From Isoetes taiwanensis (taxonomy: Eukaryota > Streptophyta > Lycopodiopsida > Isoetales > Isoetaceae): a stretch of DNA of 64,000 bases. Location of the stretch: assembly GCA_021234155.1 (NCBI GenBank), contig JAJEKV010000092.1:1622561-1686560 (forward strand), written 5' to 3'. Positions 26,697 through 47,790 of this stretch are shown in pieces. The notes beneath the pieces were generated by a model, which saw only the letters and a program-made list of their open reading frames with translations, was not told where the DNA came from and did not search any database. Every line of letters begins with the position of its first letter. Within the stretch, counting starts at the first letter, position 1. The position numbers and the translations under genes were made by a program.

Positions 26697-29600
26697 GATG
26701 AACCGCCAGGAACAAGCTTCCACCACCTTTCGTTGTCTCAAGCTCGCCTAGTTCCGAGGACACGCTTTGGGAACAACGCCATTTCTAGTGAAAACCGGCA
26801 TTCTCCGACTCCTACCTCTACTTCATCGTTGTTGCTTCTCAAGACACACCGAGTCCAAAGACGTAATGTAGACTTCCACCACCCTTCCAACTGGCCACCA
26901 AGTCCTCAGAGACGGATTAATCGGCATCTCCTTCCAAAGCATCACCACCGCCGGAGCATGTTGCCACCACCCTTTGTTCCATCCCGGGACCACCACCTCT
27001 GAAGCTCCACAACAACGGCTGTTCAAGAATAAGCTACCCCCCGCTTGTAGCTTCGCCCCTTCATGCAAACATACAAGGAACACAGAAAGTAAAGAAAACT
27101 GTGAGATTCACTACCAATTCTCTCACCAGGACTTCACTACAAATGAGGACGACGCTCCAGCATGCACTCCTATTCACACAACGGTTGTGACACATGGATT
27201 TACAGAATTCCAGTCCGCTCTGAAGGAGATGTTTGCAAGAACGCCTTTTCAAGATGGTACAAGAACAGCTGATGCCACAACCTCTTATGGGCCATCACCA
27301 TCCTTTAACACTGTACCCCCGCCTTGTCCGGGAACAACTTCACGTGGTCTGTTTTCCTCTACAAACACACCACTCAGGACAGAGGAAGTCACCCCCAGAG
27401 TAGAAGTTTCATCCGAAGGTGAAGACACCAACGAGGAACAAAGAGATTACATGTTCTCCAGCCAACCTTCAAAGAAATTCAAGGTGGATTTTGGTTTGAG
27501 GGCGTGCTCCTCTGTAAGAAGAAGAAATCTTATGGATGAACACAAAATGAGGAGACTTTTGAGAACTAAATGCTGCTCATTGGGTTGCATCAACAGATTT
27601 AACATGGCTAAATTACGAGCAGTTAGAGACAACTACAGTTCCATGACATTGGCAGACCAGAATGCCTACTTAGCTTATCATGTAAGACCAGACCGCAACA
27701 CCTTCTTGCACTACATTAACCGTGAAGAAGTTTGCCAGAAATGTTTTATGGTTGTCCACCGTTTAGGGTCCACCAGAATGTCTAGAATACATAAAAGACT
27801 GGACAAAAATCCAGCAATCGATGATCATTGTGGACCAAGAAGAGTTGTAACCATGCATGCCCTTGTGGCTGTGTCATGGATGGAGAAATATTTCAGAGAA
27901 ACATGTGAGAAGCTACCTAACAGCAACATGTATCATTTAACTGATAACATCACCAAAAAAGATGTTTTTAATGAGTACAAAGAGACTTGCACTGAGCTTC
28001 AGCACATCTCTTACTCACACTTCACCAGACTGTGGAAAAGTGAATTCGGTCTTGTGAAAATTCCTAGAAAACATAGAATGTCTGTTTGCTCAAGGTGTGC
28101 GGAATTAAAGAGTCAACGAGAAACTGCAAAGACAGAGGTCGAAAGAAGTACGCTCATGTTCTCTAATCTCTCACTTGTTTTAAAGAAAATGCTTTGACCT
28201 GACTTCTTCTACAGATATTGTGCAACAGAACCTTGCCAGACATCGTGAACAACAAGCAGCAGAGAGAAGAAAGCTTGCCAAGCACAGAAAAAAAGCTCTT
28301 GAACGTCCACTGCAATACATGTCTGTTGTGATTGATGGAATGGACCAAAAAAAAACAACTCTACCACATTTCTTGAACATTCCTAAAGATGTGCCAGAGG
28401 AATGTTTTGTTAAGGTCCACCTTGTAGGAGCTATGGTCTTCAAAGGAAGTTTAAAGTGCAATGTATTTTTGACGTATCCAAACTTGCATGGTGACCCGAA
28501 CCTCACAATTACAATTCTTAACAAGGTCCTGTGCGAGCAAGAGCAATTACCACCAGTGCTTTATCTGCAACTTGACAATACTACAAGGGAGAACAAGAAT
28601 CAAACACTCTTCGCGTACTGTGCCATGTTAGTGGAGCTAGGGATCTTTAGAAAAGTGAAGCTCGGTTTCTTACTTGTAGGCCACACTCATGATCAGATTG
28701 ATCAAATGTTCAGCAGATTTTCTGTGCGCCTTAGTAGGAAGAAGGCTTTCTATCTTCCTTCTTTAGTTCGAATTATTGAAGATTCTTACACTCCCACTCC
28801 AGTGGTCGATCTTCTTAAAGAGACTGCTGATTTCTGAGAGTTTGTTTTCTCTCAACGTTCAAACAGAGAACAAGCTGTGAACAAGTTAAATGATCTCACC
28901 TTTCAACATCACATCAAGTTCTACTTGAAGGATGGCCAAAGCTTCTTACAGGGGAAGAAGTATACCACAACTAAGGACTGGAGTCCACCAGAGGGATTAA
29001 GCTTCCTTAAATATATTCCAGACACTTCCTTCATAGAACGTGCTGAACAACTTCCTCTCAAAAATCCTAAGGAGTCCAAGCAGAAGAAAAGTACCCCAGA
29101 GTCATCCTTAAAAGCCATTGAAAATGGAATTTCCTCAGGCTTTAAGTACTTCTTAGAAGAAGATCGGATGTGGTGGAGTAATTTCTTTGTCGAACAGAAA
29201 ATTGTTGTACAAAATATAGCTCTAAGACAGTTGCAAGAACCATTTCAATGGCCTGACACCTTCCATCAACCCCAGCACCAAGCAGGTCCAAGCAATGCTA
29301 CATTTGCACCTGCAGTAGAAGACGAGGAGGATCGAGTCATGTACCTCGGACCAAGACGCAGGAATGAGCCTCAAGGTAATATCACAGAAATTACCAAAGG
29401 TATGCTAATTGCTCTTCCGACTGAGGAGGATGACAAAGGTCGACCGTTCTGGATAGCAAAAGTGCTTGACACAGTCAAGGAGGAAGGCTTAATCATTAAA
29501 CTCAAGATTCATTGGCTTGCAACACGCTCAGAAAATGCTTTTGAAGGTAGATATGAGTTAGAAATGAGAAGCCAAGGAAAAGGGAGAAAGTCCAAGAAGG

Positions 29601-29851
29601 TGGGTTGTAGGGACGAGCTGAACCTTAATGACGTGACTATATTGTGCTATGATTTTAAATTGAAATCTGACAATCGTCTACACCAGAGGACTATCAATTT
29701 GCTTAAAAAAGCTTGTAATTACGAAGAAGATGATGAAGAAGGTGGTGGCAATGCTTCACCGTCTGTTGATAGTGATGAGGAAGATAACTCAAGCACTTCC
29801 TCGAGTGACAGTGAAAGAAGTGAAGGTGATGACGATGGCATAAATGAATGA
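26697..29851 (+). CDS. DUF7869-type transposase of element B
   Basis: From 26974 an open frame runs 391 codons to a splice donor at 28148; a 67-bp intron (28148-28214) joins it in phase to the second exon, which ends at 29851. The N-terminus is Ser/Thr/Pro-rich. RRNLMDEHKMRRLLRTKCC and CSRCAELKSQ give Cys pairs that may bind zinc. The second exon has MSVVIDGMDQKKTTLP, YLQLDNTTRENKNQTLF and LVGHTHDQIDQMFSRFS. I recall these as hallmarks of the uncharacterised DUF7869 family; the spaced Asp residues suggest an RNase H-like DDE nuclease, which is inference. The C-terminus is acidic (DDEEGGG, SDSERSEGDDD). One in-frame TGA (28835-28837) splits it, but a related copy (A2) reads through there. Upstream of 26974, from ATG 26697, the frame is broken. 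It is the most complete transposase in the window. Confidence 0.7.
28148..28214 (+). other. Intron of the element B transposase
   Basis: The donor GTACGC follows GAAAGAA, and the acceptor TTCTACAG precedes ATATTGTGCAACAG. Removal joins codon pieces A and AT (phase 1) and fuses the two open frames without a stop. An alternative donor GAGGTC at 28138 would not keep the frame. Confidence 0.6.
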
Positions 29852-32293: not shown

Positions 32294-32887
32294 TGTTAGT
32301 CCTGTGCCTCCTGGTACAGGACTATTCATGCATACGACGGACCAGGTCAAGGCCAAGGATCCACAACCAGGCACGGGTCAGTCGTCAAAGGCCACGCAGA
32401 AGACCAAGCAGACCACGCAGACAAAGACCACGCCTGGCGTCAAGAGCAGGCGCTCAGACAAGTGACGGCCCGTCACCGCCCGCATCAGCGTCAGCGTGAT
32501 TTCAGGCACTTCAAGAGGCACCGCCAGCATTCCTGCAAATCAGGCCTTCTTCCAGGAGTCGGCACCGAAATCAGTCAGAGTGTCTATATTGGGCCAAAGG
32601 CCATTGTACTATATATATGAGTAGAGCTAGCACATGAGTTTTTAGATGAGTTTTGAGTCTTGTCTCACATCAGTTTTCTCTCGATTGCGAGAGCTCATGT
32701 ATCTTCATTGACATCAAGGAAGTTGTTCTCATTATTGTGGTCTCATTGTTCTCTTTTTGTTCTGTTCTCTCTTTCTTGTTCTTTTCTTGCAAATCACGCG
32801 TGACATAGCTCCCGGATTCTCCTGTTAGATACAAGGGTCCTCACAGAGGGCTGTCTTGCAGGAGTTCCCGAACCCAGACCCCAAACA
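32294..32887 (+). repeat. 3' LTR of gypsy element C (594 bp)
   Basis: It starts TGTTAGTCCTGT and ends CCCCAAACA. A TATA box (TATATATA, 32610-32617) lies inside. It matches the LTR of element E at 50761-51350 in inverted orientation over its full length, apart from indels. Confidence 0.9.
32610..32617 (+). promoter_or_regulatory. TATA box in LTR of element C
   Basis: TATATATA precedes the conserved GAGTAGAGCTAGCACATGAG stretch that is shared by all LTR copies of the family. It is the probable promoter of the element. Confidence 0.5.
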
Positions 32888-33768
32888 AGTGGCGTGGCTA
32901 CCGGCGTCAAGGGAAGAGCGTCACGGGCCGTGGGCTTTCCCACACGCTGACAGACGTCACACGTGCAAGCATAAGCGTGGGCATCTTTGAAGAGCGTGGG
33001 CCAAAAATATCCTGCCAAAAGAATTTTGCGTGCCGTGGCATCACCACTAAAATGATCACCACCAAGCCCCTCGTGGGCTTGTCGAACAATATCGGGCACC
33101 TCATGAGGAAGGACACAACGGCGGAGGACCATGTCTTTACCGCGTTTGTATAGATGGCCTGCAACCATAGTGTAGTCACGGACCTCTCTGAGAAACTGAT
33201 GGCGGCGGGAGCGAAGCTTATCTAGAGAGAGCGTCGGATCTTCTGGAGGAAGAGCGCCAGTGAGAAGATATTGCTGAAAGTTGTGAAACCAATGGGGCGT
33301 GGCCGTGACCAGGAACAATTGAGCGTCTGGAAAGGCGTCAGAAACACCCGTGGAGGGATCATCCGTGTGGATGCGTGAAAGATAATCAGGCACCACATGA
33401 GACTTGCCTGCCTTATGAACAATTTCGAAGGGAGCGAATTCTTGCAGAAGAAGGACCCAACGAGCAATTCTACCTGTGGGCGTGGCTTTGTTGATTAAAT
33501 AAAGAAGAGCTTGATGATCAACAAAGAACTTGATCTGGCTGCCCAACAAATAGTGACGGAAACGTTGGACACAGAAAACTAAGCCCAAGGCTTCTCGTTC
33601 CGTGGCAGAGTAGTTGCGCTCAGCAGGATTGAGTTTCCGGCTGGCATAGCGGATCGGTTTATCCGTGTGGTCATCATAGGCCTGTGAAAGAACAGCATCA
33701 ATGGCAAAAGCAGAGACATCAATATGAACATGAAAGGGCTTGTCCCATTGAGGAGGAACAAGCACCGG
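32888..33768 (-). pseudogene. RNase H and integrase zinc domain of element E
   Basis: A single long frame shows HIDVSAFAIDAVLSQAYDD, NYSATEREALGLVF and FFVDHQALLYLINKATP (Asp, Glu, Asp of RNase H), then LREVRDYTMVAGHLYKRGKD and an HHCC zinc site (HEGLGGDHFSGDAT, CTCDVCQRVGK). It is cut at 32888 by the LTR of C, so the integrase core is missing here. The frame itself is open, which shows how little this copy has decayed. Confidence 0.85.
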
Positions 33769-35312
33769 TGTGACGTTCCAGCACAGTATACGGTCCCAGG
33801 ACGTATACTGTACTGCCCCGTCACGCGTACACGCCACTCCGACCGACGTGTACGCCAACGGATAACCAGGTAAGTAGCCCTTGGGGGCAACTTGTTAGAT
33901 ATGTTCACATGTTATTAATGTGCACATGTGCACATTAATGTGGGCACACCTTTCCATGTTGGCATATTTTGCCACCTAGCCATTAAAGGCAAGTGGGGCC
34001 TTTCCAATTATCCCACATGCCAAAATGGGTAATTGGAAACCCTAGCCTAAACCCCATGTCTATTTAGGGTAGGAAAACCCTAGCTTGCTAGTTTTCGTCC
34101 TTAGGGTTTTAGAGCTCGGGTTTTGGCTGCCCCAGAGCCAAAAACCGCCCCGTGACGCCTGCCCTTAATTGCGCCATCGGTTCCCCAAATTGATCAGCCC
34201 GGCCAGATGGTTGAACTCAGTCGGGAGGAGCCACTCAAGGATCAGATTTGGTCAATTTAATAGCTTAAACCGTCTTCTAGTCATAGAATCCGTAGAGGTT
34301 TAGACTATTAAATTGCCCATAGCAGCTATCTAGAGCTTAGATCTGGGACACTAACTAAAGAACCTAACTCTATGATTAGATCTAGTTCTTTAGTTCTTCC
34401 GTGATGTATTTGGATGATGTATCTGTGAACTCCTTGTATTGGGAAGGGGGTAGAGGCCCTAAAGCTTGTAGTTGATGCTCCTAGAGTAGCCTCTCTAGCA
34501 CACTTGTGAGATTCGCCCAGGCACAAGAACCACACCGGGTTGTGGGTGAAGGGGCCGACCGGCTTAGAAGGAGGTTCGTGTTTCGACTCTTGAACGATCC
34601 CTATGGTGTGTTAGTGCTACCGGGGTCATTGTGACTAGGTCTAATGGCTTACCACCGAAAAGGGTAAGGCATGGGCTCACACCGTGAAGTGGTGTACACT
34701 TTTGGGTTCGGTCGAATACGGCAAAGTGGGCCCTCTAGTCACCTTGAGTCAGCATGTAGATCTCGGAGGGAGTGATCCCTACCGCCCCATCGAACCGGGG
34801 AGATGAAACCCGTGAATAGCCCTTTTGGCTATGCATCCCGTGGCTACACAGTCCCAACACTTTCAAAGCCTACTCGCAAAGTGTGCACATGGGAGGGGCG
34901 GATGGAGTGGACAACCCAATGCCATGTTCTTATGCCGCCCAAATCCATTGCCATGAATTATGTCCGCAATGAACTCCGGAGACCCAAGCCGTCAGTCATT
35001 CCCTTGAGTCTGAGCCTTGGGTAGGATTCCCTATGTGATGTGCTGATCTTTGTCTATGCAGATATGTGGAGGACCATCCTTCGTGATGGTCATATGATGT
35101 TGATGTATGTACTACCGACATGTATGTTTACGCTTCCGCAGCCTAGGTAGGCCCCGAGGGAGAGGGGTAGAATGACACCTTCACTCTTCCCATCGGGACT
35201 CGTTACGGTGTGTTGATATGTGGAGGGCCCTGTATCAGCATGGAGCTGGTGTGGGGGAAGAACTCCTGTTTGTATACGGTGAGAGCACCGTATGCGAGTA
35301 GGGGACGTCACA
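33769..35312 (+). repeat. 5' LTR of element G (1544 bp)
   Basis: It starts TGTGACGT and ends ACGTCACA, perfectly inverted 8-base termini. It matches the 3' LTR with frequent small indels, many at CG-rich spots. Open frames inside (for example 34803-35024) are in the LTR and are not thought to be genes. Confidence 0.9.
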
Positions 35313-35313
35313 G

Positions 35314-35325
35314 TGGTATCAGAGC
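35314..35325 (+). other. Primer binding site of element G (initiator Met tRNA)
   Basis: TGGTATCAGAGC lies one base after the 5' LTR. It is the well-known complement of the 3' end of plant initiator methionine tRNA and marks the start of minus-strand synthesis. Confidence 0.9.
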
Positions 35326-35518
35326 AATGTTCTTGGAGACCAAGAGCAAAGCAACCGCCATGTCCCAAAGGTGGTACTAACTTGATAGGATCCTCAAGCC
35401 TCGAAAAGTGGGAAATTTTTTTCTCATCTTTGTAGTTTATGCTAAGCTAATAACAATTAAGTGAATTGGAATTTAACAAGATTAAAAAGAATGAGCCAAA
35501 ATTTTTCCAAGTGAGGTG

Positions 35519-35586
35519 GTCTCACGCATACCGCTACCGGTCGAGAACTAAATTTTAGTTTTGAAGCGAGGCGCAAGCTGTGAGAC
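35519..35586. repeat. 67-nt hairpin repeat, copy 1 (before H3-like gene)
   Basis: It starts GTCTCAC and ends GCGCAAGCTGTGAGAC, with AACTAAATTTTAGTT at the centre. The left arm has drifted here. It belongs to the family best seen at 37392-37458. Confidence 0.7.
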
Positions 35587-35706
35587 ATCGAGCCAAGAAC
35601 ATCAAAACATGATGAATTTGAGAAACATAACGTGGTAAGGCTAATTCTAAGATAGGAATTAGTTAGAATAGCATGTTTTAATTACCTAAAAACCCTAGAA
35701 ATGTAT

Positions 35707-35773
35707 GAGATCTCCATTTCGCTACCGTCGCAAAACTAAACATTAGTATTGGAACGAGGCTAAGTCGTGAGAC
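35707..35773. repeat. 67-nt hairpin repeat, copy 2 (before H3-like gene)
   Basis: A diverged copy (GAGATCTCCATTTCGCTACC ... GGCTAAGTCGTGAGAC) that keeps the central CAAAACTAAACATTAGTATT. It lies about 100 bases before the first TATA box. Confidence 0.6.
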
Positions 35774-35875
35774 CAATAGGTAGAAAAAGTCTGAAATAAG
35801 TATAAGTTTTAGCTAAGTTGGTGCCTTAGCATGTTAAACAGAGCAACTTGAGTTTTGACCTAAAATTCCCCAAGC

Positions 35876-35883
35876 TATAAATA
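35876..35883 (+). promoter_or_regulatory. TATA box of the H3-like gene in element G
   Basis: TATAAATA, 108 bases before ATG 35984. TTTTGACCT lies just upstream, as it does before the second TATA box (37851), so the two promoters look like duplicates. Confidence 0.6.
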
Positions 35884-35983
35884 GATGTAGAACCCCCTCA
35901 TTTTTTTCGCCCAAGCCCTAGAAATCCGCTCTTCCCAACTTAGGCGATCTTTGGGCGCTTTATCCGATTGACGATCCAGAAGC

Positions 35984-37245
35984 ATGGCCCGAACCAAACA
36001 GTAATCAAGGAAGCTGCCGCCCAGCGAAACCACCAAAGCCGCCACCGAGGCGGAGATCATTCGAAGATGCTTCGTGAGAGGCTCGCGAGAGGGGGTCGTC
36101 TTCGGACGAGGGAGCAAGACACGCCCGATCCGATTAATGTCTTCAACCAAAGAAGTGAGAGCAGACGAGGCCACATCACCCAACTCCATGGACGAGGGAG
36201 ACGAGGGAGGTGTATGAAGAAATAGAGCGGGAGATCCGCAGCAGAACAAGCGTAAGACCATTCAGACGCGACCCACGTAGATCCTCGAAAGCAGATGAGC
36301 AAGTGATGTGTCCGAGCCGCCAGAGGTAGCGCATCTTAGAAGGTTCATCGAAAAGTACGAAATTTACGTAAGAGAAGGGAAGACAAAAAGAGGAAAAGGG
36401 AGGAAGAGGAACAAAAGCGCCAGAAGAGAAGAAGAAGGCTTAAAGGGAAGTTCGTGGCTCGGCATAAGGAGAACGTAAGGACCGCCCGCCAAGGAAGAGG
36501 CCGAACCCCAAGATTGTCATCAAGGAGGCAACCCGACTAACCCCCAAACCCTCCGACGACTCTTTCTCGAGGAGGACTTCAACCCTAATGCCGCAGGTGG
36601 AAGCTCTTCCAAGCACCCAAGCGACGAAAGCAGAAGTACCGAAAGCAAAATGCAAGACCGAAAGCAACCCCAAAGAAGATCAAGTGCGTAAGCCCCCGAA
36701 AATCTCGCATGGGATAGAAAGAAGCAAACCACGACACCTGCCCGGAAGCCTACGCCACCGGCTGTGGTGAAGATTTACGAGAGGAAGATGAGGAAGCACC
36801 AGGCCTACATGAAGAAATGGGAGGCCTACAAAGAAATATTATGAAGAAAATGTGGTGAGGTTCATCGAGGGAGGGCGACCAACGGGCAAAAACCTTAAAG
36901 CCGCCACCACCGAAGCCCAAGGTTCCCAAGCCACCACCAAAGAAGAAAGCTGATAGAAAGGAGGTGGAGAGAAGAGCGCTAAGGGAGATTAGACACTTCC
37001 AGCGCTGCTACGGCCTCCTAATTCCCCGTGCCCCCTTCGCTCGGTTAGTGCGAGAAGTGATGCAGGCCTACAGAACAGACTTTAGAATCACGGACGAGGC
37101 GCTGCTGGCAATGCAAGAGGCGGCCGAGGCAAAGATAGTGCAACATTTTGAAGATTCAACAGCTTGCACTATCCACGCCAAGCGGATAACCTTAATGCGA
37201 CAAGACATGAGTCTTGCGACCCGCATAAAGGGAGAACGCCCTTAG
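35984..37245 (+). CDS. Histone H3-like protein gene in a retrotransposon
   Basis: The 3' part is an open frame of 128 codons (36859-37242, stop 37243-37245) without its own ATG. It has a Lys/Pro-rich stretch (KPPPPKPKVPKPPPKKK), then a complete H3 histone fold of 89 residues, collinear without gaps with canonical H3: ALREIRHFQRCYGLLIPRAP at the alpha-N and alpha-1 region, FARLVREV, EALLAMQEAAEA in alpha-2, FEDSTACTIHAKRITLM and a final RIKGERP. About half the residues are identical to H3 by eye. LMRQD replaces the canonical IMPKD, as in some centromeric H3s, but loop 1 has normal length. Upstream, ATG 35984 reads MARTKQ, then TAA, then SRKLPPSETTKAATEAE, very like the H3 tail. Between lie about 850 bases of basic, frameshifted coding-like DNA. 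So the product may be a long-tailed H3-like protein of about 400 residues; introns, frameshifts or errors cannot be told apart. Confidence 0.75.
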
Positions 37246-37391
37246 AACTTGTTTTGTAAATAATTAAAATTTTTGTAATATAGAGCAGTTTTGTGTACCT
37301 TGATTGCATAAACTTGATTAATTAGAGCAAATTAATAAGTTTTAGCTTTTATTTCAGTGAAATAGGACATTTGCAAGCCGAGAGACATGAT

Positions 37392-37458
37392 GTCTCACAG
37401 CTCGCGCCTGGTCGCAAAACTAAAAGTTAGTATTGAAGCGAGGCGCAAGCTGTGAGAC
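37392..37458. repeat. 67-nt hairpin repeat, copy 3 (before second gene)
   Basis: GTCTCACAGCTCGCGCCT at the left pairs with AGGCGCAAGCTGTGAGAC at the right, an 18-base imperfect stem. A second small palindrome (AACTAAAAGTTAGTATT) lies in the loop. Confidence 0.85.
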
Positions 37459-37593
37459 CTCGCCCAAACTTGACCAAAACAGCTCCAAATCAGCCAAATA
37501 AGGGGTCAATTCTGCCTGATTTGATGAGCCCATCACCCTTACACCATTAGTTTACCCAAATTAGACACCTTTTGATCGAAATGAGATCGATGT

Positions 37594-37660
37594 GTCTCAC
37601 AGCGGCGCTTTGGTCAAAGAACTAAAAGTTAGTTTTGAAGCGAGGCGCAAGCTGTGAGAC
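37594..37660. repeat. 67-nt hairpin repeat, copy 4 (before second gene)
   Basis: GTCTCACAGCGGCGCTTTGG ... GAAGCGAGGCGCAAGCTGTGAGAC. It has the same length and loop as copy 3, and lies 190 bases before the second TATA box. Confidence 0.85.
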
Positions 37661-37850
37661 CTCTTACCATTTCTTCACCAGGACTTGTCAAAGTCACCTT
37701 CAACCTATTGCATAGCATCTTTTAGGTAATCTAGCCTTGTTCAAGCATCCCATATAGTCCTCAAACTCCCATTTTGACCTCAGATAGGCTAGAATTACCC
37801 AACCCTAGGAAATTTTCAAGTCATCCAAAAATTAGGGTTTTCCCCTTTTC

Positions 37851-37858
37851 TATAAATA
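37851..37858 (+). promoter_or_regulatory. TATA box of the second extra gene in element G
   Basis: TATAAATA, 117 bases before ATG 37975, in the context CTTTTCTATAAATAGACCCC. The arrangement of hairpin pair, TTTTGACCT and TATA repeats that of the H3-like gene. Confidence 0.6.
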
Positions 37859-37974
37859 GACCCCTCACTTCTCAGATAGCACCCTACAAATCTGCTCCCC
37901 GCCCTTCTAGCCGATTTCTCAACTCCCCCGAGGCGCCCTTGCAACCGTTTGTTACCCTCTTACGCAATTAATCA

Positions 37975-39504
37975 ATGGCAACCGATTTCCACAGATGGTA
38001 CAGCAGCGCCCTCATGTCGCTGAGGGCGGCGTCGACCAAATCTTCTAGATCTTGGGAAGGAGGTAGATGTCCAAGCAACCTTGCACGCGACCCCCGCCTT
38101 ATAGTAGAGTCCCGACCGAGTTCCAAGCTAGGGTAGAACCAGCTAGTGCAACTCCCCCTTGTGTAGGCTATTTTGTTCCTAGGCAGGTCCCTGTAGTAAA
38201 GCATTAGGCGATGTCCCTAACATCGCCAAATACCTCACAAACAAGCGCGATCGCACACCTGAGCCAATGGTCCTAATCAGCCAACAGGACCAAGTACTTC
38301 TCTTTCAACACCGCCACGGCAATCTTTCTCCCCCGGTGCGAGAACACCGTGGGGGAAACCTCCATTCCCCCCATGGACGTGGACCCATTGGCCATAGCAG
38401 CAGAACAACGGCTCCTCACACAGTATGAACAGGAGCACGAAGGGAAGGAAGAAGACTCGGATGAACAGGAATCAGAAGAAGAGGAAGACTATGTCGAGCT
38501 CGACCCCCGAAGAGCGGCGACAAAAGAGCAGAGTGGCAAGACTTCGAAAAGAAGCCGGAGACTCTCGAAGTCGCGCCACCCCTGGGTTAGGCATCACAAG
38601 CCTAGCTCCCATTATTGTCGAAGGTGAGGAGTTTCGCTCCTAAGTTTACATTCAAAACCTCCCCGGAGTGCGAGGGGAAAGGGAGTACCGACCTGAAGAG
38701 TTGCTGCACCAACTCCGAAGAACGGACTTGGACGACTTCATCGTCCGAGGAGAATCTGACTTCCCCCTCCAAGTAAGGGAAGCCGACACTTACACGGGAG
38801 AGTTTACCTCCGACATCCAAGCCTACAGCAACATCAGGCAGATTATGGAGGCAGACAAGGCCGAGAACAAGCTACCGACGGAGGAAGAGTTCCTTGCTCT
38901 TCAAGAACAGATGGGGATCCGCTATGCGACCTCAAACATCTTAACGGCAAGCTCGTCCGCAGAACCTCCCCGGGAGAGGACAGCGCACGACCCTCGGGGA
39001 GGGCCGCCAATCGAGACTACAGGGAGCTCACCACGGTGGAGGTTGATGACTTCGGAAGCAGACACAGAGCTGGATACCGAGTGGCCGAGGACCCGTCTCG
39101 CAACGACAGGTCACTACGGTATTACCTGCCACTGCTGATGGATGGAAGAATAGCGGTTATCCACCGCAAGTTCACCCCCAGAGGCGAGGAAGGAGTATCG
39201 TTGCTGATTGCACTCTCAGGATTCGGCCGGCATGCTTTGGTTACCCCTTAATACCAGTATGCAATCCGGTGAAGAGAGCGGTAGCACTCGACGCCTTCGA
39301 CTTCGCCATACCTTACGGTGGGCAAGGCAAGATCTGCTGTGATGGCAGACTTATACCTCCCACCGCAGAATAGAAGATTTGGCAAGAGCATTACAAGGTG
39401 GATCTCCAGCCAATGTCCTTAGGAACTTGGGCCATTCAGTGGGAACAGCCCAAGTGAAAAAGTTCCTGGAGGATAATCCATCTTACCGGCGACAACAGGA
39501 ATGA
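37975..39504 (+). CDS. Second extra gene in element G, unrecognised
   Basis: The first ATG after the TATA box reads MATDFHRWYSSALMSLRAAS. Coding-like pieces follow in different frames: DVPNIAKYLTNKRDRTPEPM, an acidic run (EEDSDEQESEEEEDY, about 38450-38500), REYRPEELLHQLRRTDLDDF, DIQAYSNIRQIMEADKAEN, then AGYRVAEDPSRNDRSLRYYL and GRIAVIHRKFTPRGEEGVS, ending RRIEDLARALQGG ... PSYRRQQE with TGA 39502-39504. AT-rich 3' sequence with AATAAAATATAAATATAATA follows. Total near 500 residues if joined. The acidic run next to an H3-like gene could suggest a histone-binding or chaperone role, but no family was recognised. Confidence 0.45.
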
Positions 39505-39639
39505 TTAGCCGTAGTCATAATTTTTGTATTAGTGTAAAATAAAATATAAATATAATATTCTCTTGCACTATAAATGTTTTGTTGATATATTTTGTGTTCC
39601 CCCCCCCAACCACACCAACAAACATTAATAATGCAAGAA

Positions 39640-41080
39640 AACAAGGAAAACTAACCATGTAGCTATGAACCACTTGTGTATGCAGCTAGAGGCCTAAGCG
39701 CAGGAGAACGACAACTGCGGGAACTTATAGAGGAACAGAGTCCGCCCAGGCCACGCCCGGCAAGGAACCTGCTTGAAGAATTTGGACAAATGACCCCAGA
39801 AGAAGAAATATCGCAAATGAGGACGGACCTCGAACAGATAAAGGCTTTGCTAGCCGCATAAGCAGGAACAGGTTCGGTGGGTAACGCCAACCGCCGCGAA
39901 GCATCAGCTTTCGGAGAACGGTAGAGACAAGAAGAGGAGCAAGAGAGCAAAGGTCCCCCAGCTCGGACTCCTCCGACTCAAGCTCGATTCAGACAGGATT
40001 CCGAGGAAGAAGAAGGGCGTAACCAACCGAAAGCGCATTTAAAGGCGAGAGGAACACCCCGGACGGACGACAAAGGGACACAAGAACCTCGACTACCGTA
40101 AGAAAGTAGACTCGTGATTGGGAAATGTTTGGAAGGCCAGAAGCTCAAGCAATTCTCAGCGAGAACAGCGTCGCATGGAGGCGAGAGGCTTGGCTTGACG
40201 AGATGAGCGAATACGGCAATGCCTATGGTATGAAGGATAAGGATAAAGGCAGTGGTGGCAACAAATAACCCGAAGGGAGCAAAGACGCATTTGGTGGAAG
40301 GGCTATGCCAAGGCTCATGGCTTAAGCAGGGATGCTTGCAGTGTTCAAGAAGTTTGCTAAAAGCCTTCTGCCGCCATTACGCCCCAAGAGAGCACAAGTC
40401 CAAGATGATGCAACAGTTCTACAAAGTTGCGGCAAGGCAACAAGTCAAGAGCTTTAAATACACCTGAGGAATTTATGAGGCTAAGGTCAGTATGTGCCAA
40501 AGTTAGGTGAGAAGCATGCGGTGGAAAGCTACATTGAAGGTCTAAATGAGGAGATCCGCGAAGTTTGTAAGGGCAATAAACCCTAGAACAAAGGTCGAAG
40601 CGGAGTCCAAGGCAATAAGCTTGCAAGGAGCGGGGACCTCGAATAATAGCGGCAGAGGCAGCAAGTATTATCAAGATAAAGGCAAAAGGAAAGCGGTTTT
40701 AGCCCGAGGACAAGCCCGGGGACGGCTAGAGCCCCATATAGTGGCAATCAAGGGAAGCGGCAGAGAAGAAGAAGCGGTGTCTTTTCAAAGACAAACAGAA
40801 GGGTCAAACTACTCCAAAGCAAAGACGATCCTTCAAGCAGCCATGCCCAAGGAAAAGAGACAGGAGTGCATAGAAAAGCAGCTTTTGCTTCGTGTGTTTC
40901 CACCGGGCCATAGACAAATGAATCGCCCATATGTCATGAGTGCAGCGCCAGCGAGTTGGGAGATTGGGACACCCTGTCTCGACGACGACGGCGAGGAGGC
41001 CCGCGACTACATTTGTGGTGAGTGTCATATCTTTGCCGCAATAGATCTGAGCAAGCGAGAGAGCCGAAGATAAAGTAATT
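39640..41080 (+). pseudogene. gag of element G, frameshifted
   Basis: Pieces are YAARGLSAGERQLRELIEEQ near 39680, a Ty3-type capsid part (AFCRHYAPREHKSKMMQQFY near 40370-40430; in other frames EEFMRLRSVCAKV and ESYIEGLNEEIRE) and NPRTKVEAESKAISLQGAGT near 40580-40640. A CCHC knuckle is not clear: only scattered Cys and His remain near 40870-40930. No single frame is open throughout, and the start codon is not certain. Confidence 0.65.
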
Positions 41081-41112
41081 TCCACGAGTGGGAAAGGCCA
41101 AGGCCAAGGCCA

Positions 41113-42890
41113 AGTCATTTGTAGTCCTGATAGATTCGGGAAGTAGCCATAACTTTGCATCCCCCAGAATGGTTCAAATGTTGAAGTTGAAACCATTAAA
41201 GTCAAAGCCAAGGCCCGTTGTCTTAGCAAGTGGAGCAAGAAGGCGGCGGCAGTAAAAGAATCAACTTTGACATCGACTTGCCAGGGATTAAGATCCAGAT
41301 GGGGGCAGAAGTAATGGGCATCGGCAAATACGACTTGATAATAGGTATGGAGTACCTTGGACCAGCAGGGGCCATTATTGATTGTGGAAAGCGGAAGGTG
41401 ACCTTCCCAGCACCCGACGGCAATATCATTGAGATAACAGGTAAAGAAGTTGTTCCTATCATGCAGTGTATGTCTTCTAAACGACTGTTCAAGTGCATCA
41501 AGAGTGAGCAAGTGGCATACATCTTCAAGCTTGAGATTGGTGAGCCGGAATTGGAAGGAAGCAGAGAAGACAAGATGCTCAGCAAGTTACCGAAGCAAAT
41601 AGCTAAGTTGATCACGGAGTTCCACGATCTCTTTCCAGATGAGATCAAGCAGCTCCCTCCTTATAGGGGAGTCGAGTGCGAGATAGCACTCGAACCAGGA
41701 ACAAAGCCAACAAGCAAGGCTCCATATAGAATGACAACGCAGGAGTTGTCGGAGCTGAAGAAAAAGCGATTCAGGAGCTGCTTTCGACCTAGGTTTCATT
41801 AGACCTAGTGTCTCGCCGTTTGGGCGCCCATTCTTTTGTCAAGAAGAAGGATGGATCTTTGAGGATGTGCATAGACTATAGGCAGTTGAATAAGCACACC
41901 ATTAAGAACAAGTATGCGCTTCCAAGATCCGGCGACTTGATGGATCGGCTTCAAGGAGCAAAGATCTTCTCCAAAATCGACTTAAGGTCGTTATCATCGA
42001 TCTTCGATAAAGGAGGAAGATATGCAGGACCGCCGTGACGCGGTATGGGCATTATGAGTTCACAGTGATGCCTTTCGCTTATCAAATGCCCCCGCAACGT
42101 TCATGAGGCTCATGAACGATATCTTCAGGGAGTTCCTGGACACCTTCGTGATTGTTTTCTTTGATGACATTTTGGTGTATAGCAGATCCCTTGAAGAGCA
42201 CGTGCAACACTTGAGAAGGGTGCTAGAGAAGTTGAAGAGGCACCCGGTTATGCGCCAAGTTGTCGGGCGCCACTTCGCAATGAGAGAAGGTGGAATACCT
42301 TGGTCATGTGATCTCGTGAGAAGGCATCTCAACGGACCCCGCCAAGATTGAAGCAAATGATTCGATTGGTCGGGCCGAAGAATGTGCATGAGGTCAGAAG
42401 TTTTCTCGGGCTAGTAGGGTACTACAGGAAGTTCGTGAAGAACTTTGCTAAGATAGCATCCCCGTTAACAGACCTGACGAGGGCAGAGAAGGTGAAAGAT
42501 TGGGTAGAGCATTGGCACAAGAAAGCCCAAAAGGGGTTTGAATTGTTGAAAGAAGCTCTGACGACAGCCCCTGTCTTGACCTTGCCGGACCCGGAGAAAG
42601 ATAAGCTTGTAGCAACAGATGCGAGTAAGATAGCTACAGGTGCAGTGCTTATGCAAGAAGAGCGTGTGGTAGCGTATGATTCCAGGAAGATGAACGACGC
42701 CGAGACGCGCTACCCAACGCACGATCAGGAATTGCTTGCGGTTGTCAGGGCATTAAGAATATGGAGGCACTATCTCTTGGGAAGGAAGTTCCAATTGGAT
42801 ACCGACCATCAGAGCCTCCAATATGTATTCACGCAACCACACCTTAATCTGGCGGAGATGGATGGAGTTCCTCGAAGAATATGACTTTGA
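41113..42890 (+). pseudogene. Protease, reverse transcriptase and RNase H of element G
   Basis: The protease has VVLIDSGSSHNFASPRMVQM (active-site DSG, about 41126) and IGKYDLIIGMEYLGPAGAII. Reverse transcriptase follows: PSVSPFGAPI-like, [20 protein letters not shown] (41840-41900), [32 protein letters not shown] and FFDDILVYS, with FFDD at the catalytic site. RNase H has LVATDASKIATGAVL, TRYPTHDQELLAVV and LDTDHQSLQYVF. Frame breaks occur near 41230, 41790, 42000, 42080, 42290, 42350 and 42885. Without these the order and content are those of a normal Ty3 pol. Confidence 0.85.
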
Positions 42891-42916
42891 TATAGTCTAC
42901 AAGCGGGAAGCTCAAT

Positions 42917-44500
42917 GTGGTAGCAGATGCGCCTTTCAAGGCATCCCCGACAACTAGAGTGCATTGCAATGCAATTTCGACGCTCTCCAGCGACTTTGGT
43001 AAGAAGATTGAAGAGTCCTTGCCAACGGATGTGGATTTCAGGGAAGTATGGGCAAGCCTCTCTAAGGAGGCTAGAACAGATAAAGAGCGGGAGGCCTTCA
43101 AGCATTATAAGAAGGAAGGCAACCTGTTATACCATAAGAACAAGTTGTGCGTACCTGAATCATCAGGTGTAAGGAAGTTGATCCTCCATGACACGCACAA
43201 CAGCCCAATAGCTGGCCATGCGGGATTCATGAAAACATATTTCAAAGTGCGCAGCAGCTATTATTGGCCAGGAATGAAGAAGCAAATAGCTCGCTACATC
43301 AAGGAATGTCAGCTATGCCAGCAGACGAAGGCGGAGCAGCTTCGAATTCCAGGGGCATTAGAGCCATTAGCGGTGCCAAACGCTAAGTGGGAGGTAATCA
43401 GCATGGATTTCATCACAGGACTCCCAAGAACAGCGAGAGGCAAGGACGCCTTGATGGTAGTGGTCGACAAGTTGTCGAAGATGGCACATTTTGTGCCTTG
43501 CAGGACCACAGATACAGCTATGGATACAGCAAAGCTCTTCACCAAAGAGATCTTCAGGCTTCATGGCATGCCAAGGGAGATTATCTCCGACAGGGATCCG
43601 AAGTTCATGAGTGCCTTTTGGCAAGACCTCTTTGCGACGATTCAGACCAAGCTATCCATGAGCACGGCGTATCATCCTCAGACGGATGGCCAGACGGAGC
43701 GGACCAACAGGATTTTAGAGGACATGCTACGAAACTATGTCTGGAATAAGCAAGGTATGTGGGAAGAATTTATTCACTTGGTGGAGTTTGCATACAATAG
43801 CACCAAGCAGGAATCATCCCAAATGTCGCCGTTTATGATCAATTACGGCTATCAGTGCCTAACTCCAGACACTTGGCACAACCCCGTGTCAAAAGTGGAA
43901 GTCTCGCAGCAGATGTTGGCTGATATGCAGCAGCTTGTGGAAGAAGTTCGAGGGTATCTGCTAGCAGCAAGAAGTCGACAAAAGAGCATCGCCGACAAGC
44001 ATCGAACAGTAAGAGAGTTCAAAGTTGGAGATGATGTTTGGCTCAAGATCAAGGTGAAGCAGGCGAAGCTCAGGATTGGGAATTGCAAGAAGCTTGCTCC
44101 AAGGTGGGCTGGACCTTTCAGAACAGTCGAGAGAGTAGGTAATCAAGCCTACAAGCTAGACTTGCCAGCACACCTAAAGATTCATAAGGTCTTCCATGTG
44201 AGTTTGTTGAAGAAGCACACTCCAAATCCAGACGAAGTCTTGGACACTCCAACGTTGTTGGAAATGACAGAGGAGCAGCTGGAAATAGTTCCAGAAATGA
44301 TTCTTGATAAAGCTTTCAAGAAGACAAGGAGGTCGGAGTTCCTCCAATACTTGGTCAAGTGGAAACACTTGCCAGTGGAAGACGCGACGTGGGTACTTAA
44401 GAAGGATTTAGTAAAGCAGTACCCACAGTTTATGGAGCAATGGGACGGCAAGGTCATCTCCGAAGAAATCGGCTCAGGCATGTCGATTTGTGTAGGTTAA
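42917..44500 (+). CDS. Integrase with chromodomain of element G
   Basis: An uninterrupted frame of 527 codons begins inside the RNase H end. The zinc site is HDTHNSPIAGHAGFMKTYF with CQLCQQTKAEQ. The catalytic core gives Asp in SMDFITGLPRTARGKDALMV, Asp in IISDRDPKFMSAFWQDLF and Glu in PQTDGQTERTNRILEDML. The GPY/F-like part (KLAPRWAGPFRTVERVG, HKVFHVSLLKKH) follows. The last 70 residues are a chromodomain: FLQYLVKWKHLPVEDATWV, with aromatic residues that would bind methylated lysine, commonly H3K9me. An integrase that reads H3 marks in an element that also encodes an H3-like protein is notable. This frame looks functional although neighbours are broken. Confidence 0.93.
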   Translation: MVADAPFKASPTTRVHCNAISTLSSDFGKKIEESLPTDVDFREVWASLSKEARTDKEREAFKHYKKEGNLLYHKNKLCVPESSGVRKLILHDTHNSPIAGHAGFMKTYFKVRSSYYWPGMKKQIARYIKECQLCQQTKAEQLRIPGALEPLAVPNAKWEVISMDFITGLPRTARGKDALMVVVDKLSKMAHFVPCRTTDTAMDTAKLFTKEIFRLHGMPREIISDRDPKFMSAFWQDLFATIQTKLSMSTAYHPQTDGQTERTNRILEDMLRNYVWNKQGMWEEFIHLVEFAYNSTKQESSQMSPFMINYGYQCLTPDTWHNPVSKVEVSQQMLADMQQLVEEVRGYLLAARSRQKSIADKHRTVREFKVGDDVWLKIKVKQAKLRIGNCKKLAPRWAGPFRTVERVGNQAYKLDLPAHLKIHKVFHVSLLKKHTPNPDEVLDTPTLLEMTEEQLEIVPEMILDKAFKKTRRSEFLQYLVKWKHLPVEDATWVLKKDLVKQYPQFMEQWDGKVISEEIGSGMSICVG

Positions 44501-45375
44501 TTCTTGTGTAGTTAGGATTAATCTACGCATGCCACCTATGCTTGGTATGGGTCGCATGCGTTGTTACCGATGATGAGACCACTACGGTGATCTCTAGGGC
44601 GTGGTGTAATGTCAACGTAGGCATGACCGCGTTTTCGCTTGGGCGAGTGGAAGGTAGATTAGAAAGTCTACTTCTGTCCCACGGAAGTAGACGACCTCGA
44701 GAGAAAGGAGGTCATTAAGGAATGCACTGATAGGAAAAGCACCTCTAGCCCCATATATGCTTTGATAGGAGGAATCAGGCCTTCACGCCCCATATACGGG
44801 AAGGACGCTGGGCAACTAGGGTGTAGGCATGAGCGGCATATAGGCATATAGGCGCTATCTCCACGGCCATAATGGAAGATTCACCCTCTTCCTACGCCGG
44901 GAGATTAGCCATGCATCCATGTAGATAGGTGGGGTGGTCACCATATAACCAAAAATTTATTAAATAATTAAAACGGTACTAACGTAGTGTCGACCTGCAG
45001 GCCAGTAGAGCGCTCCGGAGGGCAAGGAGGTCGAGCTACGAAGACTTGCAACACAAATTTTGTTGGAATGTGTCGCAAGGAACGAAGAGTACCTCGAACA
45101 ATAATTATAGATATGAAATGTTGAAATTTTGTATAACTTAATGTCATAATAACTGAGATAGCGAATACCTTGTTTAATGAGGTTATGAATTGTTAAGTAT
45201 TCCATAGTATGATGACGTGATAATGTTTTAAAAATATTACCTTAGGGTAATCCTGTTAAATGTATAACTATTATATTGTATGCATCACGTTGATTGCAGA
45301 TTGCAGATTAGGAAGATCCCAAGGTGGGGAGACCCACGATCTTTGCGGACGACATCATTTCAAAGGTGGGGAGAA
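44501..45375 (+). other. Non-coding 3' part of element G
   Basis: No gene was seen in these 875 bases between the integrase stop and the 3' LTR. They hold AGGCATATAGGC-type short repeats near 44830-44850 and AT-rich sequence. A purine-rich run (AAAGGTGGGGAGAA, 45362-45375) directly before the LTR is the probable polypurine tract. Confidence 0.7.
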
Positions 45376-46929
45376 TGTGGCGTTCCAAAGACAAAGATAT
45401 ACGGTCCCGGGGCGATATCGTATCTTTGCCATCGCATTACACGCCACTCCGACCGACGTGTACGCCAACGGATAACCAGGTAAGTAGCCCTTGGGGGCAA
45501 CTTGTTAGATATGTTCACATGTTATTAATGTGCACATGTGCACATTAATGTGGGCACACCTTTCCATGTTGGCATATTTTGCCACCTAGCCATTAAAGGC
45601 AAGTGGGGCCTTTCCAATTATCCCACATGCCAAAATGGGTAATTGGAAACCCTAGCCTAAACCCCATGTCTATTTAGGGTAGGAAAACCCTAGCTTGCTA
45701 GTTTTCGCCCTTAGGGTTTTAGAGCTCGGTTTGGCTGCCCCAGAGCCAAAACCCCCTCCCGCCCAAGCTTAATTGCGCCATCGGTTCCCCAATTGATCAG
45801 CCCAAAGAGGATGGTTGAACTCAGGTCAGGAGGAGCCACTCAAGGATCAGGTATTTGGTCAATTTAATAGCTTAAACCGTCTTCTAGTCATAGAATCCGT
45901 AGGTTTAGACTATTAAATTGCCCATAGCAGCTATCTAGAGCTTAGATCTCGGACACTAACTAAAGAACCTAACTCTATGATTAGATCTAGTTCTTTAGTT
46001 CTTCTGTGATGTATTTGGATGATGTATCTCTGTGAACTCCTTGTATTGGGAAGGGGGTAGAGGCCCTAAAGCTTGTAGTTGATGCTCCTAGAGTAGCCTC
46101 TCTAGCACACTTTGTAGATTCGGCCCTGTGCACAAGAACCACACCGGTTTGTGGGTGAAGGGCGGGACCGGCTTAGAAGGAGGTTCGTGTTCGACTCTTG
46201 AAGCGATCCCTATGGTGTGTTAGTGCTACCGGGGTCATTGTGACTAGGTCTAATGGCTTACCACCGCGGGTAAGGCATGGGCTCGACACCCGTGAAGTGG
46301 TGTACACTTTCCGGTGGGTTCGGTCGAATCACGAGGCAAGTGGCCCTCTAGTCACCTTGAGTCGGCATGTAGATCTCTCGGAGGGAGTGATCCCTACTTG
46401 CCCCATCGAACGGGGGAGATGAAACCGGGAATAGCCCTTTTGGCTATGCATCCGTGGGCTCTGATCAGTCCCAACACTTTTCAGCCTACTCTACGCAAAG
46501 TGTGCATGGGAGGGGCGGATGGAGTGGACAACCCAATGCCATGTTCTTATGCCGCCCAAATCCATTGCCATGAATTTCATGCAATGAACTCACGGAGACC
46601 CAAGCCGTCAGTCATTCCCTTGAGTCTGAGCCTTGGGTAGGATTCCCTATGTGATGTGCTGATCTTTGTCTATGCAGATATGTGGAGGACCATCCTTCGT
46701 GATGGTCATATGATGTTGATGTATGTACTACTGACATGTATGTTTACGCTTCCGCAGCTAGGTAGGCCCTGAGGGAGACAGGGTAGAATGACACCTTCAC
46801 TCTTCCCACTGGGACTCGTTACGGGTGCAGTGATATGTGGAGGGCCCTGTATCAGCATGGAGCTGGTGTGGGGGAAGAACTCCTGTTTGTATACGGTGAG
46901 AGCACCGTATGCGAGTAGGGGACGTCACA
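45376..46929 (+). repeat. 3' LTR of element G (1554 bp)
   Basis: It starts TGTGGCGT and ends ACGTCACA, followed by ACCGG (46930-46934). It differs from the 5' LTR mainly by short indels and CG-containing replacements, with long identical stretches between. That pattern is unlike ordinary ageing. Confidence 0.9.
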
Positions 46930-46934
46930 ACCGG

Positions 46935-47790
46935 GGCCTGAGTAAGTAATAGCTTCAACTTCTGAAAAGCAGCTTCCGCTTGGGGATTTCAAGCCCAAGT
47001 GGATTCATCACCTGTGAGTTTATGAATGGGATCAGCGATAGCTGCAAGTCCAGGAATGAAGGTGGAATAGTAATTAACCTTACCCAGGAAGGAACATGTC
47101 TCTTTGATATTAGATGGTGCTTGAGCCTTCAGTACACAACTGATTTTAGCAGGATCCGTGGTGATCCCATCTTTGCTAACCACATGTCCCAAAAGAACAC
47201 CTGAGGTGACGCAGAAAGTGCACTTCTCAGGATTGAGACTAATGCCAGATTCATCACATATTTGAAAGACAAGCTCTAACTTCTCCAAGTGGTCATCCAT
47301 GGAGCTGTAGGCTGAAAAATCATCTTGAAAGATCTGGAGAAAAGGTTGATCCTTCAGATAGTCTTGAAAGACAGAGAGCATGATGCGCTGAAAGGTTGAA
47401 GGAGAGTTTGATAAACCAAAAGGGACCACCTTGTAGGCAAAAGTGCCCCACGGAGTGGTGAAGGTAGTTTTGAGTTGATCTTCATGCTTGATAGAAATTT
47501 GATTGTACCCCGAGAAACCATCCATGAAAGAGTACATCTCATGACCAGCAACTTCTTCAAGAACCTGGTCAGTGAAGGGAAGCGGGAAGTGATCACGCTC
47601 CGTAGCTTGATTGAGTTTTCTGTAGTCCAGGCAAACGCAGATCTTACCATTGTGTTTGAGAGCAATGACGATGGGGCTCACCCATTCAGAATGTTTGACT
47701 TCATATATCAGGCCAGCAGCTAAGAGTTTGTCAATTTCGGCCTTGACGCGGTCACGGTAATTTGGGTTGAGCCTGTACTGTCGTTGCTAG
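46935..47790 (-). pseudogene. Reverse transcriptase of element E
   Basis: One frame from about 47681 to 46989 holds MSPIVIALKHNGKICVCLDY, ERDHFPLPFTDQVLEEVAGH, MYSFMDGFSGYNQISIKHED, TPWGTFAYKVVPFGLSNSPS and FLQIFQDDFSAY (FQDD at the catalytic site), then LEKLELVFQICDESGISLNP and SFLGKVNYYSTFIPGL. It continues to the G insertion at 46934. Well preserved, but separated from the protease frame by a shift. Confidence 0.9.

Follow-up and report, generated by a model that had tools for sequence, protein, structure and literature searches.

Can a retrotransposon carry a core histone gene of its own and keep it in working order? Core histones are considered the property of the host, and among genetic parasites they have been described in DNA viruses. 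The question is raised by a 64,000-nucleotide stretch of the Isoetes taiwanensis genome (contig JAJEKV010000092.1, positions 1,622,561 to 1,686,560, forward strand; here called the window). Positions 33769 to 46929 of the window are a 13.2-kb Ty3/gypsy chromovirus that is inserted in the pol gene of another Ty3 element. An initial annotation, made from the letters alone, had placed a histone H3-like open frame between the primer binding site and the gag gene of this chromovirus. Our analysis indicates that the frame is almost certainly part of a real H3 gene that belongs to the element and is held by selection. What the gene does for the element is a less certain matter, and it is weighed below.

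An H3 variant with a long linker

The open frame at 36859 to 37245 (plus strand, as are all the element's features given below; stop codon at 37243 to 37245) contains a complete histone fold. Its coding part, 36859 to 37242, matches the Pfam Histone family (E = 1.2e-28) and, aligned without gaps, H3.3 in the PDB (E = 3.6e-27). The fold shares 50 of 89 residues with H3.3 (7ux9) and 49 of 87 with one host H3, so the annotation's description of an ungapped 89-residue fold about half identical to H3 was accurate. Chance or misreading as the source of the fold is rejected by the Pfam and PDB matches and by the selection figures given below.

Copies of the gene were sought in a genome of 1,658,258,908 bases in 1110 contigs. 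The DNA of the fold gave 1658 first-look candidates; the best 40 were scored and were 90 to 100% identical to the query, and 20 of them were fetched. With these copies aligned, the frame at 36859 to 37245 stands as an open frame that holds the fold but not as the whole gene, of which it is most likely only a part. The true translation start is most likely the ATG at 35984, which lies 108 bases past the start of a TATA box (35876 to 35883). In the window copy this start (35984 to 36013) reads MARTKQ, a stop, and SRK; the stop and frameshifts break the stretch between the ATG and the fold, the linker at 36014 to 36858 included. Of the 20 copies that were fetched, 17 differ at no more than three of the first 18 bases and read MARTKQ, and 10 of these read exactly MARTKQTARK; the remaining three have small insertions or deletions at the start of the gene. 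MARTKQTARK is the exact tip of the H3 tail, here placed about 300 residues ahead of the fold. Exact matches to the 30-mer that encodes it stand at 60 places in the genome, and those to the 26-mer around the TATA box, CTATAAATAGATGTAGAACCCCCTCA, at 144; the reversed controls gave 0 in both cases. The TATA box is present in 21 of 21 aligned rows, in keeping with the suggestion that the gene has a promoter of its own, here a putative one.

In 1 of the 20 copies a single natural frame of 403 residues runs from MARTKQTARK through the end of the fold. Because copies start with MARTKQ, the TATA box is kept, and this one frame is continuous, we read the gene as encoding an H3 variant in which a charged linker, about 300 residues long, connects the host tail tip to the fold. 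The same continuous frame excludes a host H3 intron as the cause of the distance between tail and fold. The canonical H3 tail begins ARTKQTARKSTGGK; in copies of the window's family MARTKQTARK is present but STGGK does not come next. K4 and K9 are retained at the free N terminus and are followed by RRP. When the full-length variant was compared with Pfam, the histone part alone scored above the cutoff. A single-sequence AlphaFold2 model (mean predicted local distance difference test score, 69.7) had no PDB match at E ≤ 0.001 and was uninformative. A scan of viral contigs gave five pattern matches, none of which was confirmed.

The H3 gene belongs to the element

The element is bounded by two long terminal repeats (LTRs), at 33769 to 35312 (TGTGACGT...ACGTCACA) and at 45376 to 46929, which are 92.5% identical, and by a 5-bp target site duplication, ACCGG, at 33764 to 33768 and 46930 to 46934. 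When the flanks were joined at a single ACCGG, the interrupted pol frame of the other Ty3 element was open for 342 residues. The duplication and this restored frame place the H3 gene within one insertion of known borders. Directly after the 5′ LTR comes the primer binding site, TGGTATCAGAGC (35314 to 35325), which resembles what we take to be the 3′ end of plant initiator tRNA-Met. These landmarks agree with the initial annotation, which had called a complete LTR retrotransposon with H3 between primer site and gag.

All 20 fetched copies are collinear with the window from the LTR to the reverse transcriptase (RT) gene, with H3 in the same place; one copy (L010) has extra sequence ahead of gag. 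Because the copies were chosen by their H3, its presence in them is uninformative by itself, and the surrounding element sequence is the informative part. The annotation had raised the possibility that the H3 segment has insertion borders of its own, and none were seen in these 20 copies. For the reverse test, the genome was searched with the integrase DNA; in the best 40 of 7403 first-look candidates, five places, the window included, coincided with the best 40 H3 places. From the other 35, six high-ranking matches were taken and 751 bases were read at the predicted H3 place of each. All six encode an H3-like fold, 46 to 95% identical in protein to the window's over the matched parts, with best E values from 6.9e-68 to 8.6e-11. 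Four of the six are clear H3s; the other two (L057 and L062) have broken frames, and L062 is also cut by the end of its stretch. Other copies thus carry the gene, and insertion of a lone H3 fragment into one copy is rejected by the collinearity on both sides in 20 of 20 copies and by the six integrase-chosen relatives.

Purifying selection on the fold

Over 21 aligned rows, the analyzed block of the fold (36946 to 37242) shows 356 differences at first, 327 at second, and 1795 at third codon positions. The ratio of nonsynonymous to synonymous substitutions (dN/dS) is 0.084 (codon bootstrap, 0.047 to 0.146), which is strong purifying selection, as the annotation had proposed should be looked for across copies. 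The same block read in the two wrong frames gave 1.42 and 1.90, which disfavors an alignment artifact as the source of the signal, and an untranslated control gave 0.55. With the 16 gap-free rows only, one of which has a stop, the value was 0.092. Random sequencing errors would be expected to push dN/dS up, not down. Elsewhere in the element, dN/dS was 0.21 to 0.28 for the protease (PR), the RT block RT1, and RNase H, 0.75 for the block RT2, 0.41 and 0.58 for gag, and 0.27 to 0.46 for open reading frame 2 (ORF2). Within the linker, the first block (36005 to 36214) gave 0.685 and the block adjoining the fold (36692 to 36841) gave 0.032.

Selection was also apparent at greater distance. Between the window copy and three of the integrase-chosen relatives (L059 to L061), silent sites are saturated (proportion of synonymous differences [pS], 0.82 to 0.89), and the corresponding nonsynonymous proportion is 0.14 to 0.17. 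Four closer pairs among five sequences, the window copy and its relatives, gave dN/dS values of 0.061, 0.069, 0.085, and 0.190.

A second set of H3 fusions

When the genome was searched with the Pfam histone family, 8705 first-look candidates came up, and the best 150 of them were scored. The top 15 scored 164 to 165 bits, and the four that were read are all host H3. The other 135 among the matches listed scored 144 to 155 bits; 23 of these places were read, as 24 loci (L033 to L056, with L037 the same place as L040), and all 23 have an H3 fold at the C terminus. In the four measured, this fold is 87 to 90% identical to host H3. An open frame of at least 400 residues is present in 36 of the 135. 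Six aligned fusions have in common a conserved N-terminal domain and are 44 to 69% identical overall to the first of them. The added domain had no Pfam match above the cutoff in the two fusions scanned, and a PDB search with a profile of the six gave 177 matches, the best 60 of which were all histone chains, found via the histone end. One fusion (L052:165-1409) starts MARTKGTK, a hint of a possible H3-tail remnant at the front of the added domain.

Two 9.9-kb stretches, L039 and L040, place the fusion in an element. In both, it follows the same LTR end and the same 12-nucleotide primer site as in the window and lies ahead of gag and pol genes; both elements are gypsy elements. Two more frames (L040:5331-6074 and 6452-6940) lie between the fusion and gag. 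They have relatives in L039 and no Pfam match, and they are not detectably in the window's element. Farther on, at L040:7271-9376, gag and protease are joined straight to integrase; the RT is missing, apparently deleted.

The fold of the second set has a median dN/dS of 0.044 and a maximum of 0.16 (97 of 276 pairs, those with pS of 0.05 to 0.6), and over all 276 pairs the median pS is 0.74, which is saturated; these pair statistics count one place twice (L037 and L040). The tails differ from that of host H3, which reads ARTKQTARKSTGGK...AARKSAPATGGVKKPHR. Ahead of the fold, the second set has KHPSTGGK, SRPAVGAK, ARHPGTAGK, and similar motifs. In an alignment made by eye and anchored on the G-K of K14, all 21 readable tails (20 places; L042, L046, and L050 were unreadable) have proline at the place of K9, often with a lysine two residues earlier. 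From K14 to K36 the tails are shortened, and no ARKS is present at the place of K27.

Residues of the nucleosome core

We considered eleven positions of H3 (52, 69, 72, 83, 110, 113, 115, 116, 118, 123, and 126) that presumably have roles in contacts with DNA or between the two H3 molecules. All eleven are host-like in 24 of 24 rows of the second set, in the 16 of 16 rows used from the window's family, and in four of four more distant relatives (L058 to L061).

Repeats upstream of the H3 genes

In the window, L039, and L040 alike, the H3 gene is preceded by a pair of repeats. The window's pair (35527 to 35760) has copies 74% alike and is related to a second pair (37389 to 37663) upstream of ORF2. 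Single repeats have inverted arms in L039, in L040, and before ORF2 of the window; before the window's H3 gene, an inverted match was found only between the two copies. Between the three elements, no resemblance in repeat sequence is apparent by eye.

What the element's H3 may do

The reading that we prefer is that a plant Ty3/gypsy lineage acquired an H3 gene from its host and has maintained it in working order, with its own TATA box, between the primer site and gag. The product would pair with host H4 and enter nucleosomes; the added domain, the linker, or the ORF2 product would probably direct it to the element's own promoter region with the paired repeats; and chromatin containing it would resist or divert silencing by the host through H3K9 and H3K27, so that the element stays transcribed. 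This would be an anti-silencing device like VANC of the VANDAL transposons, but built from a histone. We put the probability of the whole proposal, that a captured H3 is kept as a working gene, enters nucleosomes, and opposes silencing on the element's DNA, at roughly 0.4, its functional steps being read from the gene's makeup. The parts differ in strength: that the element's H3 acts in nucleosomes is probable, and that anti-silencing is its main benefit we suggest only tentatively. A more specific version seems doubtful: that the lineage makes a nucleosome of its own, in which H3 either lacks the K9 and K27 sites (second set) or bears the tail tip on a long arm (window's family), and that a family-specific part addresses it to the element's own promoter repeats and so marks copies against silencing.

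Several observations weigh against the proposal. The window copy is broken and only 1 of the 20 fetched family copies is open end to end, although errors of a nanopore draft in repeats are a likely cause. Loss of K9 does not apply to the window's family, which retains K4 and K9, and in the second set ARKS occurs farther upstream at three places (L037/L040, L051, and L054). R63 is a proline in the window's family and in L058 to L061, and residues 49 and 129 are altered in three of these four relatives. In L039 and L040, the H3 fusion is preceded by repeats but none were found ahead of the later frames, and ORF2 of the window's element is not detectably common to these two elements.

The draft in question is reported in PMC8566536 as 1658.30 Mb in 204 scaffolds and 909 contigs, built from nanopore v9.4.1 reads by use of miniasm, racon, and pilon. 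The differences between the LTRs of the window's element are grouped in short garbled spots between near-perfect stretches, which suggests assembly errors and makes dating by LTRs unsafe. Because of this clustering, and because the copies also differ in garbled spots, many of the frameshifts are likely nanopore errors that short reads cannot mend in repeats.

One alternative is a role in the particle or in integration: by binding host nucleosomes or the nucleic acid of the element, the fold would act as nucleocapsid or would tether the integration complex. A histone is suited to binding DNA or H4, and the linker block adjoining the fold is the most constrained block that we measured. The integrase chromodomain (44288 to 44446; PF00385, E = 9.8e-11), which the annotation correctly recognized, also bears on this idea. 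Its best alignments are to CHD1-type chromodomains, and it reads VPEMILDK and VKWKHL where classical chromodomains have what we take to be Y24 and Y48 in HP1 numbering; with residues matched by eye, two of the three aromatics of the cage appear to be missing. It is therefore apparently of the group II kind. The annotation's claim that the element reads methylated H3 is not supported here, and the link between making H3 and reading methylated H3 is weakened. As described in parts of PMC3350952, group II chromodomains lack the first and usually the third aromatic, and their interacting factor was not found; one of them colocalized with an HP1-like protein. The window's chromodomain thus cannot be assumed to read H3, which leaves room for another tether. 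Nevertheless, the H3 gene has its own TATA box and is separated from gag by ORF2, the residues of the H3-H3′ bundle are kept where a mere binder of nucleic acid would not need them, and gag-pol of copies already has zinc-knuckle-like matches, though these are below the Pfam cutoff. A role in the particle or in integration is, in our judgment, unlikely.

The tail tip suggests a different use, as a decoy: on its long linker, MARTKQTARK might attract or titrate the host's K4 and K9 readers and writers, and nucleosomes would not be needed. The exact ten residues in half of the fetched copies, the 60 exact genomic places of their 30-mer, and the linker of about 300 residues would suit such a mimic. 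But selection holds the fold (0.084) and not the first block of the linker (0.685), and the six aligned proteins of the second set lack the MARTKQTARK tip, one of them beginning MARTKGTK. We regard a decoy as quite unlikely.

The annotation had pointed to centromeres, and the gene could in principle derive from CENH3 and help the element enter or use them. Compared with Arabidopsis CENH3, the window's H3 is 54% identical with three gaps, and its RHFQ, LLIP, and TLM residues are similar; plant CENH3 likewise combines an H3 fold with a long variable N-terminal part. The element's H3 differs in being in retrotransposons, in having a tail tip identical to that of canonical H3, and in lacking the two-residue loop-1 insertion of CenH3, and canonical host H3 aligns to it without gaps and with a higher score (101 versus 84.7 bits). 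A tree built from 32 sequences of the fold places the second set, which is clearly canonical H3 in the four folds measured, in one group (support, 88/77) near host H3. The window's family is on a long branch and is unplaced; it groups weakly with two CenH3 rows (74/87.7), and holding it together with the second set, with which only the histone parts align, was not rejected (approximately unbiased test, P = 0.336), so that the two may go back to a single capture or to separate ones. An earlier tree without the more distant relatives gave the window's family a branch of 1.97 and nested both CenH3 rows within the second set; we regard this result as a long-branch error. A CenH3 origin of the window's H3 is not favored, the centromere idea found no direct support, and a centromere-directed H3 is improbable.

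Retroelements now and then capture host genes, and many frames are broken here, but a passive passenger without function, carried along by copying, is scarcely credible given purifying selection within and between families with silent sites saturated and H3 in all six integrase-chosen relatives.

Relation to known systems

The closest parallels to a captured and selected H3 gene are viral. Parts of PMC9145170 describe a bracovirus H4, whose tail is extended and which is incorporated into nucleosomes of the host, and mention single H3s as well; as here, one host-like core histone is on a mobile or viral genome. Those histones belong to DNA viruses or virus-derived agents, whereas ours are in several families of LTR retrotransposons and bear a linker or added domain roughly 300 residues long. 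In the main text of that review the word "retrotransposon" was not found, and "transposable" occurs once, concerning other genes. Likewise, among the titles and abstracts listed in literature searches, none describes a retrotransposon-encoded histone, in agreement with the annotation's remark that no such family was known.

In function, the proposed parallel is VANC, an anti-silencing protein of VANDAL DNA transposons. According to parts of PMC5735166, VANC has conserved and variable parts, and its targets are often tandem repeats that differ between related elements. The H3 variants are also proteins encoded by the element with conserved and variable parts, and the paired upstream repeats recall VANC's variable targets; VANC is not called a histone in those parts of the source.

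With a retrotransposon lineage in which an H3 gene is carried, edited, and retained, one can test directly whether transposons contest silencing at the nucleosome itself. Its proteins, with their altered K9 and K27 regions, long tails, and extra domains, are a natural collection of H3 variants, and the question arises of how the plant manages so many foreign H3 genes (at least 40 copies in the window's family and at least 135 further matches). In addition, transposon genes may contaminate the counts and trees of histones that are drawn from plant genomes.

Other features of the element and its surroundings

The element's two LTRs with a target duplication, its gene order of PR, RT, RNase H, and integrase, and its C-terminal integrase chromodomain are those of a chromovirus. 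RNase H (42348 to 42884; PF17919, E = 1.1e-31), integrase (42896 to 44500), and the chromodomain were recognized in the window itself. Gag (40110 to 41078) and PR with RT (41079 to 42340) have broken frames and were recognized via homologous frames of copies: the homologous stretch of copy L014 matches PF03732 (E = 4.5e-18), and those of PR and RT match RVP_2 and RVT_1. Between the H3 gene and gag, a second TATA box (37851 to 37858) precedes ORF2 (37975 to 39504), the frames of which are broken; Pfam gave no match above the cutoff for the ORF2 and ORF3 frames. Compared with the plant chromoviruses of the Tekay, Galadriel, Reina, and Tcn1 clades, as treated in parts of PMC3350952, the element is alike in its gag, PR, RT, RNase H, and integrase with an apparently group II chromodomain and in its 5-bp target duplication; it differs in its H3 gene, in one or more extra frames before gag, and in its length of 13.2 kb.

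The RNase H and RT halves of the interrupted Ty3 element are at 32797 to 33894 and 46992 to 47786 on the minus strand, split by the H3-bearing insertion. Farther upstream, long frames at 26872 to 28194 and 28838 to 29848, which have no Pfam match, adjoin a frame at 28184 to 28834 that matches DUF7869 (E = 2.9e-48); this is perhaps another mobile element.

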